Assembly (NCBI GenBank): GCA_013697735.1
Contig: JACCWH010000010.1
Coordinates: 1-47,696, forward strand
Direction: 5' to 3'
Length of the DNA: 47,696 nt
Source: Trueperaceae bacterium
GTDB lineage: Bacteria; Deinococcota; Deinococci; Deinococcales; Trueperaceae
This document shows, piece by piece, positions 24,543-33,800 of the stretch. Both the position numbers and the translations under genes were made by a program. Positions within the stretch are counted from its first letter, which is position 1, and each line of letters opens with the position of its first letter. A model generated the notes under the pieces. The model had not been told where the DNA came from and searched no databases. It was given only the letters and a program-made list of their open reading frames with translations.

Positions 24543-25454
24543 GTGTTCGAGCGTTTCGAGCGACTCTCCATCCGCACCGGATCGGTCACCATCGAAGCCG
24601 TCGTCGGCGGTCAGGGGCCTCCGGTCCTCCTGCTCCACGGCTATCCGCAGTCGCACGTGATGTGGCACCTCGTCGCGCCGGCGCTCGCCGAGCAGTTCAC
24701 GGTCGTCGCGACCGACCTCCGCGGGTACGGCGACTCGAGCAAGCCGACGGGGGACGCCGAGCACCGCACGTATTCGAAGCGGAGCATGGCTCGCGACCAG
24801 GTCGAGGTAATGACGGCCCTCGGGTTCGAGCGCTTCGCCGTCGTCGGCCACGACCGCGGCGGCCGCGTCGGACACCGCCTGGCGCTCGACCACCCGGAAC
24901 GCCTCACCGGCCTCGCGGTGCTCGACATCGTGCCGACGTTCCACGTCTTCGACGCGGTCGACCGCTTCATGGCGATCGCCTACTACCACTGGTTCTTCCT
25001 GGCGCAGCCTCACGATCTGCCGGAGCGGCTCATCGGCGGCGATCCCCGCCTCTACCTCCATCGCAAGATCGGTGGCTGGGGGACGGGACTCGACGTCTTC
25101 GCCCCCGAGGCACTCGCCGAGTACGAGCGCTGTTTCGACGCCGCCACGATCCACGCCTCCTGCGAGGACTATCGCGCGGCCGCGAGTTGCGACCTCGAGC
25201 ACGACGAAGCCGACCGCGGCCGCCGTCTGTCGCTCCCCCTGCTCGTGCTCTGGGGCGCGAAGGGCGTGGTGCACCAGGCGTACGACGTGCTCGAGGTCTG
25301 GCGCGACTACGCGACGGACGTCCGCGGCGGATCGATCCCTTCCGGGCACTACCTCGCCGAGGAGTGCCCGGAGGAGACGACGGCGGCGCTGCGATCCTTC
25401 CTCGCAGCCTTGCCGAGTGAACCCGACGCACCCCCCGCCGGAGCGCCGAAATGA
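24543..25454 (+). CDS. Alpha/beta hydrolase, haloacetate (fluoroacetate) dehalogenase-like
   Basis: The 303-residue protein closely follows the fluoroacetate dehalogenase fold. The nucleophile is Asp 104 in GHDRGGR, with carboxylate-binding Arg 105 and Arg 108. The catalytic acid is Asp 128 (VLDIVPT) and the base His 269 (SGHYLAEECPE). The halide pocket is represented by His 149-Trp 150 (YYHWFFLAQP) and Tyr 210 (SCEDYRAAA). All residues known to matter in the Rhodopseudomonas RPA1163 enzyme are present. It should displace halide, possibly fluoride, from 2-haloacetates. Many homologues of unknown true substrate share the signature. The GTG at 24543 has GGAGG 6 nt upstream. Its stop overlaps dppA (ATGA), so they form an operon. 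Confidence 0.88.
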   Translation: MFERFERLSIRTGSVTIEAVVGGQGPPVLLLHGYPQSHVMWHLVAPALAEQFTVVATDLRGYGDSSKPTGDAEHRTYSKRSMARDQVEVMTALGFERFAVVGHDRGGRVGHRLALDHPERLTGLAVLDIVPTFHVFDAVDRFMAIAYYHWFFLAQPHDLPERLIGGDPRLYLHRKIGGWGTGLDVFAPEALAEYERCFDAATIHASCEDYRAAASCDLEHDEADRGRRLSLPLLVLWGAKGVVHQAYDVLEVWRDYATDVRGGSIPSGHYLAEECPEETTAALRSFLAALPSEPDAPPAGAPK

Positions 25455-26305
25455 AGGTGCTGATCTCGGCCGACATGGAAGGCGTTTGCGGTGTGACCGC
25501 CTGGGTGCAGGTCATGCCCCCGGAGTACGGGAGCGCGTCGGCCTCCACCGTCGAATACGAGCGCGCTCGCGCGCGGCTCACGCGTGAGGTGAATGCTGCC
25601 GTGGAGGGGGCCCTCGCCGCCGGCGCCGAGGAGGTCATCGTCAACGAGGCCCACAACGGCATGCGCAACCTCGTGCCCGAAGACCTGCACCCCGACGTAC
25701 GCTTCATCACCGGCTCCGACAAGGCCCTCGGGATGATGCAGGGGGTCGACGAGCCGGGCGTCGCCGCCGTCTTCTTCGTGGGCTACCACGCGAAGGCGGG
25801 CACACCGCATGCACCGCTCGCGCACACGTGGACTGGCACCGTGAACGACGTGCGTCTGAATGGCCGCTCCACGGGCGAGTTCGGGATCAACGCCGCGATC
25901 GCCGGGCACTTCGGGATACCGGTGACGCTGGTGACCGGCGACGACAAGGCAGTGGCGCAGGTGCAGGAGTTGCTGGGCGAGCGCGTCGTGGGCGTGGTGG
26001 TGAAGGTGGGCTACACCACCTTCAGCGCCATCCACCTCCACCCCGTGCGTGCCCAGGCGGCGATTCGCTCCGGCGCCGAGGAGGCGGTGCGACGTGCCAC
26101 CGAGGCGAAGGTCTGGACGCTCCCGAGCGCGTGTCGTGTCGAGATCGACTTCGACCACCAGGCGCGCGCCGAGGCGTGCCTGAGAATCCCCGGTGTGACG
26201 CGAGCCGGTGACCGAACCGTTGCATACACTGCCGACGATGCGCTCGTCTTCAACGCCCTGTTCCGAGCGGTGATCGGGGCCAGCGACGTCTCCTTCGGGC
26301 CGTAG
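25451..26305 (+). CDS. dppA: D-aminopeptidase DppA-like (M55)
   Basis: The 284-residue protein shows the M55 zinc-site pattern: SADMEG (Asp 8, Glu 10), NEAHNGMRN (His 68), GYHAKAGT (His 113) and STGEFGIN (Glu 143). Family members form decamers that cleave N-terminal D-amino acids from peptides such as D-Ala-D-Ala, releasing D-amino acids for use. It overlaps the dehalogenase gene by 4 nt and lies divergent from a D-amino-acid deacylase, so the locus looks devoted to D-amino-acid or modified-amino-acid salvage. Length and motifs are complete. The exact peptide specificity is not known. Confidence 0.9.
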   Translation: MKVLISADMEGVCGVTAWVQVMPPEYGSASASTVEYERARARLTREVNAAVEGALAAGAEEVIVNEAHNGMRNLVPEDLHPDVRFITGSDKALGMMQGVDEPGVAAVFFVGYHAKAGTPHAPLAHTWTGTVNDVRLNGRSTGEFGINAAIAGHFGIPVTLVTGDDKAVAQVQELLGERVVGVVVKVGYTTFSAIHLHPVRAQAAIRSGAEEAVRRATEAKVWTLPSACRVEIDFDHQARAEACLRIPGVTRAGDRTVAYTADDALVFNALFRAVIGASDVSFGP

Positions 26306-26450: not shown

Positions 26451-27614
26451 ATGTCCACGTCCATGACGCCGTTGAAGTATCTCGATCGTGCCATGAACTC
26501 CTTGCGCGACCTAGGACTGCTTCGCGGCGACGACCGTTCGGCCGAAGCCCCCATCGTGGCGCTTCTCCAGCGCATCAGCGATCTCGACGAGGAGCGCGTG
26601 GTCGCGATCACCCGGACCCTCGCTCAGGCGTCGGTCTTCAACGAGGTGGTTCGCTCGCAGGTCGAGGCGATGGACATCGGCACTCGCTACGAGCGTGTCT
26701 CGCGCGATTTCGATAGCATCCGCGATGACGCGCGCGCGCTGGTCTCCCAGATGGAGGACGGTCGCATCGACACACGCGAGCGCTTGGCCAACCTCTGGAT
26801 GAAGGTCACCCGCGGCGACATCTCCGCTCGCTTCGCGCGCATCAAGTCGACCTATCTCGAGGTGAACGCCGCCGCGCAGGATCAGCTCCAGCGCGAGAAC
26901 CTGATCCTGGAGGCGTACCAAGACTTTCGAGGCGCGCTGAAGCAGGCCGAAGTGCTGGCCCACGAGGTGATGACGAAGGCCCAGGCCGAACTCGACGCCG
27001 CCACGGCCGACGTGCAAGCGTCGATGGTGGCGGTCGACGCCTACGAAGGCGACGACGGAGCGGATCGCGCTCGCCTCGAGCTCGCGCGTGACGAGCGCGT
27101 TCGAGCGCTGCAGACGAGCGAACGGCGCTATCAGATCGCCAAGGATCTCGCCGACAACCTCACCATCGGCTACAACACGTCCGAGGTGGTGATGGCGCGT
27201 CTCATGCAGTCCCACACGGCCAAGGAGCGCGTGAATGCCCAGGCGGTCAGCTTCTTCGGCACCAACGAGACGGTGCTCACCGCGCTCACGGCGTCGTTCA
27301 CGGGACTGAGCGGGCTGCACGAGAGCACGCGTACGCTCGACACGATGAAAGAGGGCGTGAGCCGCTCCCTCGAGACCCTCGCCGAGATCGGTGGGAAGGT
27401 ACAGGAGGATGCCCTGCGAGCCGGCTACGGCCCGACGGTGCGCGCCGACGCGGTGCAGCGACTCGTCGACTCGGTCGTGGAGTATCAGGAGCGGTCCCGA
27501 GAGATCATCGCGGAGATGCGCGAGCTCGGAACGAAGAACGCCGAGGAGATCCGCGAGGCCGTCGAGGACGGGAAGCGGCGACTTGCGAAGCTCGCGCGTC
27601 AGGCCGAGGCCTGA
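26451..27614 (+). CDS. Coiled-coil protein, TelA-like (toxic-anion-resistance type)
   Basis: The 387-residue soluble protein is almost entirely helical, with long heptad stretches (about 60-270) and a conserved-looking middle (DLADNLTIGYNTSEVVMARLMQS). The C-terminal part, with TMKEGVSRSLETLAEIGG, resembles TelA-family proteins, which occur in tellurite-resistance and envelope-stress loci; I rate that link as plausible, not firm. The ATG at 26451 has GGAGG 5 nt upstream, and in-frame starts back to 26331 lack one. It is the first of three closely spaced genes with a membrane protein and a Gly-tailed coiled coil. No ATPase or metal motif is visible. Confidence 0.7.
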   Translation: MSTSMTPLKYLDRAMNSLRDLGLLRGDDRSAEAPIVALLQRISDLDEERVVAITRTLAQASVFNEVVRSQVEAMDIGTRYERVSRDFDSIRDDARALVSQMEDGRIDTRERLANLWMKVTRGDISARFARIKSTYLEVNAAAQDQLQRENLILEAYQDFRGALKQAEVLAHEVMTKAQAELDAATADVQASMVAVDAYEGDDGADRARLELARDERVRALQTSERRYQIAKDLADNLTIGYNTSEVVMARLMQSHTAKERVNAQAVSFFGTNETVLTALTASFTGLSGLHESTRTLDTMKEGVSRSLETLAEIGGKVQEDALRAGYGPTVRADAVQRLVDSVVEYQERSREIIAEMRELGTKNAEEIREAVEDGKRRLAKLARQAEA

Positions 27615-27623
27615 TCCGCGGCC

Positions 27624-28526
27624 ATGGCCGACACCGCAGCCGTACGCTCGCGACCCCTCGACGAGGTGATGCTCGCGATGGACGTCGTCGACACGCTTCG
27701 GCATCGCCAGACCGTAGTCGCGCAGGAGCTCGAGGGTCCCGAACGCGACGAGGCCCTCCTCGCGCGTTTGCGGCAGATCTACGCCGCGCAGGGGATCGAG
27801 GTCTCCGACCGCATCCTGCACGATGGCGTGGCTGCGTTGCGCGAAGATCGCTTCGCCTACCGTCCGCCGCCCGACGACTGGCGCATCCGCCTGGCGCGAA
27901 TCTACGTGGAACGCGGACGCTGGGGCAAGCGTCTGCTCGGCGTCGTGATCGCCCTCGCGATCGGCGTGGGGGCCTACCAATTCGCCATCGTGGCGCCTCG
28001 CGACGCGATCTCGGCGGAGATCGAGCGGACGCACGCAGCGATCGGGGCCGTCGCCGTGGACGAGGGGGCACGCCTCGGCGCCGATACCCTCCACGCCCGT
28101 GGCCGCGCCGCGATCGCGGCGGGCGACACGCGCACGGCACAGGCGACGCTGGCTGAACTCGGGGAGCTCCAGGCGAGTCTCGAGCGCTCCTACTCGCTGC
28201 TCGTGGTCATCGGGCCTGACGTCGTGAGTGGCGTCTGGCGCGTGCCCGACATGAACGTCGAGGCGCGCAACCACTACCTCATCGTCGAGGCCGTGGACGA
28301 GCGTGGCGGACCCGTCGCGCTGCCCGTCCGCAGCGAAGAGACGGGACGGATCGAGCAGGTGACCACGTTCGGGCTCAGGGTCGATGAAGCGACGTGGAAT
28401 CGCGTCGCCGCCGACCTCGAGGACGACGGCATCATCCAGGAGCGGCTCGTGGCGGTGAAGCGGCCGGGCGTCCTCGAGCCCGAATACCTCGTCGAGACCA
28501 CGGGCGGGACGATCACGCGATGGTAG
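27624..28526 (+). CDS. Single-pass membrane protein, DUF6384-type
   Basis: The 300-residue protein begins with a conserved helical region, PLDEVMLAMDVVDTLRHRQ (11-29), then LLARLRQIYAAQGIEVSDRILHDGVAALREDRF. One membrane helix (about 103-123) follows, then a C-terminal domain that starts helical and becomes beta-rich (SGVWRVPDMNVEARNHYLIVEAVD and on). This N-terminal signature is what I recall as DUF6384; the number is from memory. The C-terminal domain is likely extracytoplasmic. It starts 10 nt after the TelA-like gene with no Shine-Dalgarno of its own and ends 23 nt before the next gene, so it is translated within the same operon. Function is unknown. Confidence 0.75.
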   Translation: MADTAAVRSRPLDEVMLAMDVVDTLRHRQTVVAQELEGPERDEALLARLRQIYAAQGIEVSDRILHDGVAALREDRFAYRPPPDDWRIRLARIYVERGRWGKRLLGVVIALAIGVGAYQFAIVAPRDAISAEIERTHAAIGAVAVDEGARLGADTLHARGRAAIAAGDTRTAQATLAELGELQASLERSYSLLVVIGPDVVSGVWRVPDMNVEARNHYLIVEAVDERGGPVALPVRSEETGRIEQVTTFGLRVDEATWNRVAADLEDDGIIQERLVAVKRPGVLEPEYLVETTGGTITRW

Positions 28527-28548
28527 CGATTCATCTCGGGTGTGCACC

Positions 28549-30057
28549 GTGATCACGGGCCGCCAGACCCTCGCCGACATCACCGGTGCTCTGCGCGACG
28601 AGCGTGCCCGCCTCGAGGAGGTCGATCGTCGCCTCAAGTCCGCGAACGAGCGCTTGGTGGGCATCGATGCGGCGCGCACGAAGGAGATCGCTGCGCTGGC
28701 GCGACTGCACGTGGGTGAGCTCGCTACCGGCGCAGAGGAGCGCCTCGAGGGGAGCGACGCGCGCGTCGCCGCCATGCTCCAACGGCGCGAGTCCGAGCGC
28801 GCGTCACTCGAGGCTCGGCTGCGCGACCTCGTCGCAGCGGCCGAGCGGCTGGAGCGGGAGCGGATCCCACTCGTCGATGCGCTGGAGGTCGCGACCATGG
28901 CGGTCGATGACGCCGAGGCAGCGACGCAAGCGCGCCTCGAGCGCGACGACGCCTACCGCGCGCAGCGCGAGCGAGCGGTCGCCACGGAACGCACCGCTCG
29001 ACACGCAGACGAGAAAGCGCTCGCGAGTCAGGAGGAGCGCCTCGAGAAGGGTCGTGCCTTCGAGGCCGACCCGATCTTCATGTACCTGTGGCGACGCGGG
29101 TACGGCACGCCCGCATACCGTGCCTGGCCGCTCGTGCGGCGGCTCGATCGGGCGGTCGCGAGGTTGATTCCCTTCGAGTCAGCGAGGGTGAACTACGCCC
29201 GACTCGTGGAGCTGCCCGAGCGCTTGCGCGAGCACGCCGACGCCGTGGCGAGCGCTGCGGACGCCGAGCTCGAGTCGTTGCACGGGCGCGACATGGAAGC
29301 GCGTGTAGCCGACGGCGTCGACGCGCTCGAAGCGGAGCGCGACGTGGCCGAAGCTGCGCTCGCACGTCACGACGCCGTCATCGCCGATGTCGACGAGGAG
29401 CGGCAGGAGACGTTCGACGGGATCGAACGAATGGACCGTGGCGAAGACGACGCCTTCGCCGAGGCGGTCGCCTTCCTCGCTTCCGAACTCGCGCGCGACG
29501 ACGTGCAGGCGTTACGGCGCGCCGCGCTCGCCACGCCCTACCCCGAGGACGACGTGATCGTGGGGCGCCTTCTCGACCTCGAGGCGGAGCGCGACCGGCT
29601 CGCCACCACCGTCGGCGATCTCGAGGGCGTCGCCCAGCAGGTTCGTGAACGGTCGCTCGAGCTCGATGCGGTGCGACGCGAGTACACCGCTCGTCGCTTC
29701 GACGAGCCGGGCTCCGCCTACGCCGACGGTGACCTCGTCACCAACATGTTGTCGCAGTTCCTCCGGGGAGCCGCAACGCGAGATGTGCTGTGGCGCGTGC
29801 TCGAAGGGCAACGGAGCACGGCCTCGCGTCGTTCCAACCCGACCTTCGGATCGGGCGGCTTCGGACGGGGGAGTCCCTGGACTGGCGGCGGCGCTTCGAG
29901 GGGCTCGAGCGCTGCGGGCCGCATGGGGTCCGGAGGTGCGCGCGGCGGACGCGTGGGCGGCGGCGGCGGTCGATCGTCGGGTGGTCTGACCGGCGGCGGC
30001 TTCAAGACGGGGGGCCGCATGGGTGGGCGCGGCTTCAAGACCGGCGGGAAGCGTTGA
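28549..30057 (+). CDS. Coiled-coil protein with WRRGYGT core motif and Gly-rich GFKTGG tail
   Basis: The 502-residue protein has a long N-terminal coiled coil (about 10-170), a short aromatic core (FMYLWRRGYGTPAYRAWPLV, about 177-196), more coiled coil (to about 400), and a disordered Gly/Arg/Ser tail of about 80 residues that ends with two FKTGG units. No membrane helix is evident beyond the aromatic core, which could be membrane-adjacent. I know of no assigned function, although proteins with the same core and tail sit beside DUF6384 genes. The GTG at 28549 is preferred over 28540 on spacing from an upstream GGG, but the start is uncertain. It closes the three-gene operon and converges with the SDR gene. 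Confidence 0.7.
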   Translation: MITGRQTLADITGALRDERARLEEVDRRLKSANERLVGIDAARTKEIAALARLHVGELATGAEERLEGSDARVAAMLQRRESERASLEARLRDLVAAAERLERERIPLVDALEVATMAVDDAEAATQARLERDDAYRAQRERAVATERTARHADEKALASQEERLEKGRAFEADPIFMYLWRRGYGTPAYRAWPLVRRLDRAVARLIPFESARVNYARLVELPERLREHADAVASAADAELESLHGRDMEARVADGVDALEAERDVAEAALARHDAVIADVDEERQETFDGIERMDRGEDDAFAEAVAFLASELARDDVQALRRAALATPYPEDDVIVGRLLDLEAERDRLATTVGDLEGVAQQVRERSLELDAVRREYTARRFDEPGSAYADGDLVTNMLSQFLRGAATRDVLWRVLEGQRSTASRRSNPTFGSGGFGRGSPWTGGGASRGSSAAGRMGSGGARGGRVGGGGGRSSGGLTGGGFKTGGRMGGRGFKTGGKR

Positions 30058-30070
30058 TGACCGGAAGCGC

Positions 30071-30796
30071 TCACCAGGGTATCGAGGCCCCAGTGTGGTC
30101 GAAGAAGCCGCCGGAGTCGCCCGGCTCGAGACGCTCGAGCAGGTCGAGGAGGGCGCTCGCGGCCGCGTCCGGCGTTCGCGCCTCCTGGCCGCCGCCGCCG
30201 AATGGCGCGGAGAGTCCACTCTCGACGTGGCCGGGATGGAGCGCCACGCACAATGCTTCCTTGCGACTGCGCGCGAGTTCGTTCGCGGCGCTCCGCACGA
30301 GTTGGTTGAGCGCGGCCTTCGAGGCTCTGTAGCCGTACCAGCCGCCGACCGTGTTCTCGCCGATGCTCGCGACCCGCGCCGAGAGGGTGGCGAAGACCGC
30401 CGTGCCGTCGCGCGGGAGGAGCGGCAGGAAGTGCTTCATCAGCAGCGCGGGACCGATCGCGTTGATCGCGAACGAGCGTGCGAGGCGCTCGCCATCGAGG
30501 TGACGCCACGTCTTCTCGGGCATGTGGTCGTCGCCGTGTAGGAACCCGGTGGCGTCGATCACGAGGCGGAGCGGACCGCCACGCTCCTCGACCGCGGCCG
30601 CGGCGGCCGCGATACTCGCTTCGTCCAGCAGATCGACCGGTGGATCGCTCGTGCGGGAGAAGCCGTGGCTCGCCTCGAAGCGGTCGTCGGCGCGGAGCCG
30701 CTCGAGCAGCGCACCGCCGATCGCTCCCGACGAGCCGATCACGACGGCCACGCCGTCGGACGGAATCGCTGCGGTCGTGCGCGATGTATCGGTCAT
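30071..30796 (-). CDS. Short-chain dehydrogenase/reductase, CsgA-like
   Basis: The 241-residue protein has the nucleotide-binding loop GSSGAIGG at 21-28 and the catalytic tyrosine-lysine pair in YGYRASKAALNQ, with a preceding FATLSAR serine. SDRs of this C-factor-like type oxidise or reduce small alcohols or ketones with NAD(P). A GGGGQEARTP loop before the C-terminus is typical for the group. The ATG at 30796 has TACCGT 5 nt upstream and no Shine-Dalgarno, so a leaderless start is likely. Its 3' end converges with the Gly-tailed gene (13-nt gap). Substrate unknown. Confidence 0.87.
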   Translation of the reverse strand: MTDTSRTTAAIPSDGVAVVIGSSGAIGGALLERLRADDRFEASHGFSRTSDPPVDLLDEASIAAAAAAVEERGGPLRLVIDATGFLHGDDHMPEKTWRHLDGERLARSFAINAIGPALLMKHFLPLLPRDGTAVFATLSARVASIGENTVGGWYGYRASKAALNQLVRSAANELARSRKEALCVALHPGHVESGLSAPFGGGGQEARTPDAAASALLDLLERLEPGDSGGFFDHTGASIPW

Positions 30797-30837: not shown

Positions 30838-31623
30838 CTACGGGATTGGGCGAGAGACTCGGGGACGCTCGCCGAACGACGCGTACAAGAGGGCGACGAG
30901 CACGCTCACGGTCACGAGACCGGCTGCCAGCGCATAGCCCACCCCTACCGTCCCCTGCGCATGGCTCCAGTACGCGCGCGCCGCCCACGTGGGGGGGAAG
31001 GCGACGCCGATCACCGCGCTCCAGGGTTCGGGAACGAAGTACGCCGCGATCGGCAGCAGGAAGAGCGCACCGAGGAGCTTCTGTAGACCGACACCGTGGA
31101 CCTTGTTCGCCGCGAAGATGGCGAAGAAGAGCATCACGGCCGGCGCCACGAGCGCGGCGAGGAACGAGGTCGCGAGGAGCGGTGCGACGGCGAGCGGCGC
31201 GATCCCGGTGAGATGCACGCAGATCGGAAGGAGCACGAACGAGAGCAATGCCGTGAGCGTGCCTCGGTAGGCGAGGAACCGAGCGAACGGGAGCGGTGTG
31301 ACGCGCAGTGCGTCGAGGGTGCGCTCGTCGCGCTCCTCGAGGAGCATGAAGCCACCGACGGTGCCGATGGCGAAAGGCGTCATGAGCACCACGAGATAGG
31401 CGACCAGGAGGGGAGCGTACGGCTCGAGGTCGAGCGCCCATTCCTCGAGGAGCCAGGCGGCGAGGGGTGGATACCCGAAGCGGAGGAGCAGCGCGGTGAG
31501 CACCGGGATCGCGATCGCTCCGAGCAGGTAGGCATCCCTACGGACGATCTTCGCGTCGGCGCGGAGCAGGGCGCCGATGGTGGCGGCGCGCACCTCAGGC
31601 CGCCGTACGAAGGACGTGGGCAT
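30838..31623 (-). CDS. ABC transporter permease (second of pair)
   Basis: The 261-residue protein has about six hydrophobic segments (for example LLGAIAIPVLTALLLRFGY, LVAYLVVLMTPFAIGTVGGF and GLVTVSVLVALLYASF) and the loop LLEERDERTLDALRVTPLP. That loop is the coupling-helix-like motif of ABC-2-type export permeases. It overlaps the preceding permease gene by 29 nt. Together with the ATPase it should form an exporter in the inner membrane. The cargo is unknown; a TetR gene in the operon suggests a small-molecule or drug ligand. The start could be slightly downstream of 31623. Confidence 0.85.
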   Translation of the reverse strand: MPTSFVRRPEVRAATIGALLRADAKIVRRDAYLLGAIAIPVLTALLLRFGYPPLAAWLLEEWALDLEPYAPLLVAYLVVLMTPFAIGTVGGFMLLEERDERTLDALRVTPLPFARFLAYRGTLTALLSFVLLPICVHLTGIAPLAVAPLLATSFLAALVAPAVMLFFAIFAANKVHGVGLQKLLGALFLLPIAAYFVPEPWSAVIGVAFPPTWAARAYWSHAQGTVGVGYALAAGLVTVSVLVALLYASFGERPRVSRPIP

Positions 31624-32308
31624 CGAAGGCCGCTCGCGACCAGGCGAGTCCGGCCACCACGACCGTGGCGCCGAATGCGAGGGCGTAGAGGAGTTGGCCT
31701 GGGCGAATGCCGGTGATGGCGCCCTCGAAGAGCACGAGGGCGGGCATGGTCGGCCAGAGGTAGAGCAGCGGGTGGTGCCACGGGCTCACCAGCGTAACGA
31801 TCGGGAGGAACAACGGCGCCACGAAGAGTGGCGAGGTGATGAGGAAGTTCGTCACGGAACGGTAGCGGGCCACCACGACGAGTCCCGTCACCGTCGCCAG
31901 CGCGCCTTGGATCACGATGCCCGCGAGCAGCAGTGGGAAGGCGCGCGTGACGCCGAGCGTGAGGAGCACGAAGAGCGTGCCCTCCAGCGTCGCCAGACCA
32001 GCCAGCGTGATCAGCTTCGAGAGGAGGTACTCGCGCGTGCGCAGCGGCGTGACCGCGAGCGCGTCGAGCGTCCGATCGCCGCGCTCGAAGAGCACCTGCG
32101 CCGACGCGAAGGCGAACGCCGTCGCGCCGACGAACATGAAGAGGAGCCCCGGCATCGCCGCCTGCGCGAGATCGGGCGGCAGCAGCGTGCGCACGACGGC
32201 CACGAGCAGGATCAACGCCACGGCCGTGAACACCGGCAAACCGTTGCGCCGCTGGAGACGGAGGTCGACGCCGATCGTGTGCGTGAGTCGGCGGAGGGCG
32301 GGCGTCAC
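31595..32308 (-). CDS. ABC transporter permease (first of pair)
   Basis: The 237-residue protein has about six hydrophobic segments and the loop LFERGDRTLDALAVTPLR, which parallels the motif in the following permease, so the two are paralogous halves of one exporter. It overlaps the ATPase gene by 4 nt at its start and the second permease by 29 nt at its end. Such tight overlaps indicate translation as one operon. Cargo unknown. Confidence 0.86.
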   Translation of the reverse strand: MTPALRRLTHTIGVDLRLQRRNGLPVFTAVALILLVAVVRTLLPPDLAQAAMPGLLFMFVGATAFAFASAQVLFERGDRTLDALAVTPLRTREYLLSKLITLAGLATLEGTLFVLLTLGVTRAFPLLLAGIVIQGALATVTGLVVVARYRSVTNFLITSPLFVAPLFLPIVTLVSPWHHPLLYLWPTMPALVLFEGAITGIRPGQLLYALAFGATVVVAGLAWSRAAFDAHVLRTAA

Positions 32309-33150
32309 GAGAGCGCCTTGCCGGTCACCTCGAGGAAGATCCGTTCGAGCGTCGCCTCCATCGTGTGGAGGGACCGAACTCGACCATCGCGGAGCGCCGT
32401 CGTGAACGCCGGCGCATCGGCGAGCCCCTCGAGCGGGTACTCATGCACCTCGCCATCGTGCGTCTCGACGCGCACGGCGCGCTTGCCGAAGCGCTCGCGC
32501 AGCGCGACGGGCGTGTCGAGGAGCGCGATCTCGCCGTCCGTGATGAAGGCGACGCGGTCGCACAGTTCGTCGGCGATGGTCATGGCATGCGTGGTCAGGA
32601 CCACGGTCGCGCCGGCGTCGCGGTGCTCGAGGATGAGGTCCGTCACGAGCCGGGCGTTCCCCGGATCGAGTCCCGAGGTCGGTTCGTCGAGGAAGAGGAG
32701 CTTGGGGTGGTGGATGAGCGCGCGCGCGAAGGAGAGTCGCATCTGCATCCCTTTCGAGTAGCGCGCCACCGGCACGCGTGCGGCGTCCGCCAACCCGACC
32801 TGGCGGAGCAGGTCGATGGGGTCGCGCGTCGCCCCGGAGTAGAGCGAGCGGAAGTACGCGAGGTTCTCGAGCCCGGTCATCTTGCCGTAGTGGTTCGGTG
32901 CCTCGAAGCCGACGCCCACGAACTCGAAGAGGTCGCTCCCCCAGGCGTGCACGTCGCGTCCGAGCACGCGGGCGCTGCCCTCGTACGGGTGGAGGAGGCC
33001 GGTGAGGATCTTCTGGATGGTGCTCTTGCCGGCGCCGCTCGGGCCGAGGAATCCGAATATCTCACCTTCGACGACGTCGAAGGTGGCGTGCCGCACCGCC
33101 GGCCGCGTGCCTCGCGCGTACGTGAAGCGGAGGTCGTCGACGCGGATCAT
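32305..33150 (-). CDS. ABC transporter ATP-binding protein
   Basis: The 281-residue protein has Walker A GPSGAGKST at 36-44, the signature region YSKGMQMRLSFARAL, Walker B LLFLDEPTSGLDP and the switch His in TTHAM. The YSKGMQ signature, instead of LSGGQ, is common in ABC-2 exporters. The last 60 residues form an extra C-terminal domain seen in drug and lantibiotic exporter ATPases. It powers the two permeases immediately downstream and overlaps the TetR gene upstream by 4 nt. Confidence 0.93.
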   Translation of the reverse strand: MIRVDDLRFTYARGTRPAVRHATFDVVEGEIFGFLGPSGAGKSTIQKILTGLLHPYEGSARVLGRDVHAWGSDLFEFVGVGFEAPNHYGKMTGLENLAYFRSLYSGATRDPIDLLRQVGLADAARVPVARYSKGMQMRLSFARALIHHPKLLFLDEPTSGLDPGNARLVTDLILEHRDAGATVVLTTHAMTIADELCDRVAFITDGEIALLDTPVALRERFGKRAVRVETHDGEVHEYPLEGLADAPAFTTALRDGRVRSLHTMEATLERIFLEVTGKALS

Positions 33151-33752
33151 GGCGACGCCAGCCCCCGCAGGAAGACGGCGATGGCCTCGCGCACGTAGGT
33201 CTCACGCTCCGGCATCCCTTCACCGAGGTGCGGCATGAGTTCGGTGGTGAGGACGAACGCGAACATCGAGCCGAGGAAGATGCGGGCGCCGCTCTCGACG
33301 TCGTGCGGCCGGAGTCGACCAGCCTCGACCTGATGGGCGAGGTAGCCGCTGAGGAAGGCGACCACCGCGCGCTGACCCGCTGCGTGACCGGAGGCGAGGT
33401 CGGGCGTTCGAATCGCCTCGCCGAAGAAGATCCTGAGGAGCTCGCGACCGTACGGCGCGTCGAGGGTGGCGTAGTAGGCGTGCATGAGGCGCGGCAACGC
33501 CACCTCGGGCGGGAGCGCCATCAGGGCCGCCGGATCGCGCGTCTCCTGCACGAGGGGCGAGAGTTCGGAGACGACCGCGTCGGCGAGGGCGTCCTTGTCG
33601 CGGAAGTAGTGGTAGATGAGCGACGGGGAGGCGAGGCCGGCCTCGCGTGCGATGCGCTTGATGGAGGCGCCGGCGATCCCCTCCGTCGCCATCACTCGCA
33701 GGGCGGCTTCGAGGATGGTGCGGCGGCGGTTCTCTGCGGGAGGTGGTGTCAT
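33147..33752 (-). CDS. TetR-family transcriptional regulator of the ABC exporter operon
   Basis: The 201-residue protein has an N-terminal TetR helix-turn-helix: NRRRTILEAALRVMATEGIAGAS, IKRIAREAGLASPSLIYHYF. A ligand-binding helical domain follows. It is first in an operon with an ATPase and two permeases and should repress that operon until it binds a small molecule. The ATG at 33752 is chosen because a promoter and a perfect 20-bp palindrome lie just upstream; a longer frame to 33800 would overlap them. There is no good Shine-Dalgarno, and the leader would be only about a dozen nt. Confidence 0.92.
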   Translation of the reverse strand: MTPPPAENRRRTILEAALRVMATEGIAGASIKRIAREAGLASPSLIYHYFRDKDALADAVVSELSPLVQETRDPAALMALPPEVALPRLMHAYYATLDAPYGRELLRIFFGEAIRTPDLASGHAAGQRAVVAFLSGYLAHQVEAGRLRPHDVESGARIFLGSMFAFVLTTELMPHLGEGMPERETYVREAIAVFLRGLASP

Positions 33753-33767
33753 GGGCGTCGAGTGTGG

Positions 33768-33787
33768 TTGATCGAACGTTCGATCAA
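33768..33787. promoter_or_regulatory. Perfect 20-bp palindromic operator for the TetR regulator
   Basis: TTGATCGAACGTTCGATCAA reads the same on both strands. It lies 15 bp before the tetR start and covers the -10 side of the promoter, as expected for autorepression by a TetR dimer. Confidence 0.8.
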
Positions 33788-33800
33788 TTTCCCGTGTCAA
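33771..33800 (-). promoter_or_regulatory. Promoter of the TetR-ABC operon
   Basis: On the minus strand TTGACA (33800-33795) is a perfect -35. At 18 nt spacing TTCGAT (33776-33771) is a weak -10 that lies inside the operator. Transcription would start about 12 nt before the tetR ATG. Confidence 0.6.

Follow-up and report, generated by a model that had tools for sequence, protein, structure and literature searches.

A Conserved Three-Gene Cassette around a DUF6384 Membrane Protein in Trueperaceae, Other Bacterial Phyla, Giant Plasmids and a Giant Phage

The A-B-C Cassette and Its Co-Inheritance

Three consecutive plus-strand genes in a 47,696-nucleotide stretch of a Trueperaceae genome (assembly GCA_013697735.1, contig JACCWH010000010.1, positions 1 to 47,696; in the following, the window) were found to form a cassette that is strictly co-inherited in the same order across phyla, plasmids and a phage, and that therefore most probably encodes one undescribed, membrane-anchored protein system. 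Gene A (26451–27614, 387 amino acids) encodes an all-helical protein without a known family, as deduced from the list of open reading frames (ORFs), Pfam and NCBIfam scans and the predicted structure. Gene B (27624–28526, 300 amino acids) encodes a single-pass membrane protein of the family DUF6384, as deduced from its Pfam match and predicted structure, and gene C (28549–30057, 502 amino acids) a coiled coil with a Gly-rich tail, as seen from its sequence and the alignment with relatives. The GTG codon at 28549 was set as the start of gene C because the relatives begin with M-I-S/T-G-R-Q. Gaps of 9 (A–B) and 22 (B–C) nucleotides separate the genes, exactly as listed in a first-pass annotation of the bare sequence, which had also predicted that the trio constitutes a system and had proposed profile searches and gene neighbourhoods as a check. 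This check came out in favour of the prediction, and there is hardly any doubt that A, B and C represent one system.

Relatives of B were scanned in one genome per species, which yielded 137 places, the best 80 of which were kept; among others, the scan reached Desulfofustis, Chromatiaceae and other Gammaproteobacteria, Devosia, and Microvirga and other Alphaproteobacteria. The kept B loci, together with 17 loci of Deinococcota relatives and those on plasmids and phages, were then searched iteratively with hidden Markov model (HMM) profiles of the three proteins. In 91 distinct loci, all three genes were present in the order A-B-C on a single strand, a recurrence far in excess of chance, and the window locus likewise carries the three families adjacent, in this order and on the same strand. 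The carriers comprise Trueperaceae, Pseudomonadota, Desulfobulbaceae, Nitrospirota, megaplasmids including pMPPla107, and the jumbo phage phiR1-37. The cassette is thus present in no fewer than four bacterial phyla, on several giant plasmids and in one giant phage. Exceptions to the full trio among the searched loci were contig ends, one false weak match and one phage (Dfl-JY45, see below). The median gaps across loci amount to 24 nucleotides (A–B) and 4 nucleotides (B–C).

Co-inheritance was also apparent among 61 genomes related to that of the window, where B was detected in 17 (plus one sub-threshold match), all of which also possess A; A was further detected in two genomes, in both of which the contig stops beside or inside A (G030, a contig of 4248 bases; G001, a fragment at a contig edge). 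Pairwise distances among A, B and C from 86 loci were correlated with coefficients of 0.95, 0.90 and 0.94, compared to maxima of 0.28–0.38 in 1000 permutations. Furthermore, no fourth gene family common across taxa was found within about 10 kb of the trio, indicating that it is a self-contained unit. The cassette is rare and patchy, because A occurred in merely two out of 299 Pseudomonadota genomes searched, one of them being the genome used as centre; many sister genera within the Trueperaceae also lack it.

In public records, the proteins of the trio are named 'hypothetical', 'cell surface protein' or 'merozoite surface protein 3b', and no link between them is made. The last of these names, given by NCBI to the A protein of Pseudomonas plasmids (L102, L123), is a misleading transferred name. 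Two unnamed families and one domain of unknown function thus turn out to be a conserved mobile unit for which no description was found in the literature and family libraries searched, and three unlinked unknown genes in chromosomes, megaplasmids and a jumbo phage become one strictly co-inherited, testable system.

Occurrence on Megaplasmids and in Phages

The trio was detected on megaplasmids of Bradyrhizobium, Microvirga, the laboratory strain Methylorubrum extorquens AM1 and Pseudomonas, pMPPla107 and pBASL58 being among them. The replicons bearing it range between 0.3 and 1.4 Mb, and the phage carrier has a size of 262 kb. In this phage, the Yersinia jumbo phage phiR1-37, the trio corresponds to g190–g192. 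The g190 protein shares 41% identity with A of the window, and g191 matches B (tblastn E-value 2e-9); g192 is too diverged for a significant score with the C profile, its position, size and tail (SSSDSFGGGGGFSSSDSF) being as in C. Among viral structures, the predicted B is matched best by a 440-amino-acid model, G4KKD0 (E-value 1.4e-14), which probably represents g191, to which it was assigned because of this length.

In a tree of the joined A, B and C proteins (a quick tree with long branches, root not inferred), the Trueperaceae are nested among proteobacterial and desulfobacterial sequences, and the deepest branches are those of the copies from Pseudomonas plasmids and phage. Transfer between phyla would be the natural reading of this tree.

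The Dolichospermum phage Dfl-JY45 encodes B and C next to each other (L104, 7050–9781), and gene A was not found anywhere in its entire 209-kb record, even at an E-value of 1. Its B protein matches the B profile from position 66 on, the open frame reaching 218 residues further upstream of the match, and is devoid of the cytosolic N-terminal motif described in the next section. Since this phage lacks both A and the motif, the case, a single one, suggests that the motif of B receives A, and also that B and C may be able to act without A.

Four IMG/VR contigs (L141–L143 and L145) were considered as further phages carrying the trio and were rejected, because the trio, located at the contig end, has an integrase and a LysE-type gene as neighbours; they are probably flanking Pseudomonas chromosome beyond the end of a prophage. 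TelA and the B protein of Dfl-JY45, used as queries in viral scans, retrieved no matches, and the PHROGs search returned none either.

Predicted Architecture of the Three Proteins

B is a full-length DUF6384 member (PF19911; E-value 6.6e-107, 357.6 bits versus a cut-off of 25, profile positions 4–308 of 308) with one membrane helix, as the first-pass annotation had recognized. The family is of unknown function, and its model is silent on the constant partners A and C. Near its start, B carries the conserved sequence pointed out in that annotation (PLDEVMLAMDVVDTLRHRQ in the window, 27654–27710; as for all features of the trio, on the plus strand), corresponding to the family motif LDEVMLAMDVVDTLRHRQ in the cytosolic helical N-terminus; based on the alignment and its absence from Dfl-JY45, it is the proposed docking site of A. 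One strong hydrophobic segment is formed by residues 105–123 (27936–27992), with a Kyte–Doolittle (KD) hydropathy of 2.2. In 88 out of 99 B proteins, the 15 residues before this helix are richer in Lys and Arg than the 15 residues after it (the opposite holds for 5), and B is therefore predicted from charge to be oriented with its N-terminus inside and its C-terminus outside. The predicted structure, with a predicted local distance difference test (pLDDT) value of 85, consists of the cytosolic helical N-terminus, the membrane helix, a helical stalk and a beta-rich domain. The latter, a predicted extracytoplasmic C-terminal domain (residues 188–300, 28185–28523, pLDDT about 90–97), ends in a conserved ITxW-COOH. 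No match was obtained for the predicted B in a fold search of the PDB. The B proteins of the Pseudomonas plasmids and the phage are longer (440–490 amino acids), the additional residues following the membrane helix.

Among the three proteins, A shows the highest conservation, with a mean identity of 65% as compared to 46% for B and 36% for C (86 loci). Neither A nor C matched any family in the Pfam and NCBIfam scans, and searching solved structures by sequence gave no credible match for A, B or C. The AlphaFold model of A contains helices only, in agreement with the first-pass annotation, at a low mean confidence of 63. It comprises a short N-terminal helix followed by a long predicted hairpin (residues 119–280 of the 383-amino-acid form, 26817–27302), the model being confident only to about residue 240, so that the second helix of the hairpin enters the low-confidence region. 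The predicted helix 3–16, putatively amphipathic, has a moment of 0.34, and the maximum hydropathy of the protein is a KD value of 0.95. As seen from alignment and hydropathy, the most conserved segment, QAVSFFxTNETVLTALxASFTGxxGLHES (27234–27332), is modestly hydrophobic.

The C protein forms a long coiled coil; its central region, YLWxRxFGTxxY, is conserved, and its tail is rich in Gly or Ser. All features of C noted at first sight, namely a coiled coil of about 500 residues, a WRRGYGT core, a Gly-rich tail and two FKTGG motifs, are present in the window, where the flexible tail extends over 29821–30054 and the motifs are located at 30001–30015 and 30034–30048. The protein ends in FKTGGRMGGRGFKTGGKR-COOH; in the window, KR follows the second motif, whereas in other C proteins xF-COOH usually does. 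In this respect the window tail is an outlier: 77 of the 83 distinct C tails end in Phe, 79 match [FW]x[TS][GSR][GDN]x[FVRI]-COOH, and a tandem second copy of the tail motif is recognizable in 37.

At the DNA level, a pattern for F-(R/K)-T-G-G-x-F-stop occurred exactly once in 17 out of 20 trio-bearing genomes, and the reversed-pattern control gave no matches. Where coordinates were compared, the single match falls at the C gene. Given this distribution, the motif does not represent a genome-wide sorting tag, and its receptor, if any, would have to reside within the trio, in C itself or in one dedicated partner. The earlier suggestion that the repeated FKTGG serves as a tag is thereby supported, insofar as the motif is conserved at the C-terminus and restricted to gene C.

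Proposed Function and Alternative Explanations

It is proposed that A, B and C would act as one self-contained, horizontally mobile protein system in which B may serve as a bitopic inner-membrane anchor, its N-terminus being cytosolic and its beta-rich domain lying outside. The conserved cytosolic N-terminal motif of B would recruit the helical scaffold A, and the coiled-coil protein C would join and be cross-linked via its doubled F-x-T-G-G-x-F carboxy-terminal tail. This assembly could be a membrane-associated scaffold sensing or stabilizing the cell envelope under stress, similar to, without being one of, the TelA/XpaC or PspA modules. The role of B as an anchor, put forward in the first-pass annotation, is made plausible by the charge distribution around its membrane helix and by the one natural co-loss of A together with the N-terminus of B.

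A physical complex of the three proteins appears likely. That it is a scaffold serving envelope integrity has somewhat less than even chances, and we commit to this reading because of the envelope and stress genes next to the trio and the analogy with XpaC/TelA induced by CesSR. In a Desulfobacterales genome, an MscS gene is located 96 nucleotides upstream of the trio, and in Desulfobulbaceae/Desulfofustis a DUF533 gene follows directly 3' of it (L008, 12437–13681; L007, 6745–7575), succeeded in L008 by a BON-LysM gene. LemA, an M48 peptidase and an AI-2E transporter represent further envelope or stress neighbours in various lineages, as do the StiP-PELOTA genes of two Pseudomonas megaplasmids. 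In L. lactis, the XpaC/telA pair is raised with the CesSR envelope-stress response, the XpaC-like gene 10.3-fold and telA1 3.4-fold (PMC3139573).

A layered scaffold, shared by bacteria, megaplasmids and a jumbo phage, in which the private, multivalent F-x-T-G-G-x-F tail of C drives self-assembly or docking, and from which A and the A-docking motif would have been lost in one phage that retained B and C, is a more tentative proposal. Several points weigh against the envelope scaffold. The genes next to the trio vary by lineage, and those with an 'envelope' flavour were picked out by visual judgement, without recourse to a null model; the literature search found no experiment on A, B or C and no paper mentioning DUF6384. 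Furthermore, the A model is of low confidence, the co-loss of A and the B N-terminus is a single case, and, if C is cytosolic, the location of the large B domain outside leaves the contact between C and B unexplained.

Like the trio, the TelA/XpaC pairs combine a gene for a soluble helical protein with a neighbouring gene for a membrane protein and have a proposed envelope role. In the first-pass annotation, A had been labelled 'TelA-like'; as a remote relative it would keep the TelA fold and act as in such pairs, B then substituting for XpaC. A is indeed all-helical and of similar length, and its non-significant profile-profile score (hhalign) of 25 still exceeded the 12–16 of column-shuffled or reversed controls. 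However, the probabilities were only 1.3% with six TelA proteins and 1.9% with ten diverse ones, below the value of about 7% for A versus the unrelated coiled coil C. The Pfam TelA model (PF05816) had no match across the genome of the window, and no TelA match was present among the reported Pfam matches of 24 members of the A family. B versus XpaC (PF10112) reached 0.2%, the neighbour of A being a DUF6384 and not an XpaC-type protein. In addition, the trio has a third, obligatory gene, and both systems coexist in one genome: Lamprocystis, Thiocapsa and others possess true TelA in addition to A, and several genomes combine the trio with a TelA that has an XpaC neighbour. The label should therefore not be used for A, a remote fold relation being unlikely.

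Similarly doubtful is a membrane-bound competition system of mobile elements, by which the trio would block superinfecting phages or incoming plasmids. Such blocking would account for its carriage by megaplasmids and phiR1-37 and for its patchiness in chromosomes, as seen in the Pseudomonadota and the Trueperaceae sister genera. However, the PADLOC models for known anti-phage defence systems gave merely a weak ZorA coiled-coil match to A (E-value 0.006), neither an enzymatic or toxic domain nor defence genes recurring beside the trio across taxa were found, and the mean identity of A across phyla is unlike that of arms-race genes. Less probable is a positioning or anchoring machine for very large replicons, in which an A/C scaffold tethered by B would keep the DNA of a plasmid, phage or chromosome membrane-bound; the sizes of the carrier plasmids and phage would fit, but most copies reside in ordinary chromosomes, no DNA-binding domain was found in A, B or C, and no partition genes were noticed beside the trio. 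A tripartite alpha-helical pore former of the Ahl/Nhe/Hbl type, built of A, C and B, is the most improbable of these alternatives. It is brought up by the best PDB fold matches of the low-confidence A model, AhlB, AhlC, SmhB and NheA (E-values 0.02–0.1, template modelling (TM) scores up to 0.46–0.52), none of which reaches an E-value of 0.001 or below. Long helical bundles match generically, axonemal and designed proteins being in the same list, A has no strongly hydrophobic head, and no secretion signal was noticed.

PspA/IM30 proteins are ESCRT-III-like membrane stress scaffolds, which the low-confidence model of A may resemble in its putatively amphipathic helix near the N-terminus and in its predicted hairpin; no PspA family appeared in the Pfam scans of A and no PspA structure among the fold matches listed. 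None of the known systems compared was thus found to include the trio, and its function may later place it among the envelope-stress scaffolds.

Genes Surrounding the Cassette

On pMPPla107 (L138, 20410–29598) and pBASL58 (L139), StiP-PELOTA and PTH2-like genes adjoin the trio, accompanied on pMPPla107 by a metallophosphoesterase, and a dCTP deaminase gene is near its other side on both plasmids. StiP-PELOTA (PF11202, PF15608) is shared with Ter-type stress loci; however, inspection of other lineages did not reveal it next to the trio, and no TerB, TerC or TerD was noticed. A short distance from the trio, both megaplasmids also carry Type I-F-like Cas6f/Cas7f genes (L138, 37801–42012; L139, 36510–40710), with Csy2 in L139 and no Cas3 annotated near these genes on either plasmid.

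In Devosia (L028), a Pfam-confirmed CoxG-family gene is located upstream of A on the opposite strand, and similar CoxG-like ORFs lie upstream of A in the Pelagibacterium and Maritalea loci (L050, L060). The upstream neighbour of the trio in the window is an M55 D-aminopeptidase gene (25451–26305); such a gene also adjoins the trio in a second Trueperaceae locus (L012, 12412–13236), but on the other side. Downstream of gene C, position 30071 marks the end of an opposite-strand ORF, and minus-strand ORFs at 30838–33800 resemble two ABC-2 permeases, an ABC ATP-binding protein and a TetR-like regulator, with no relation to the trio seen.

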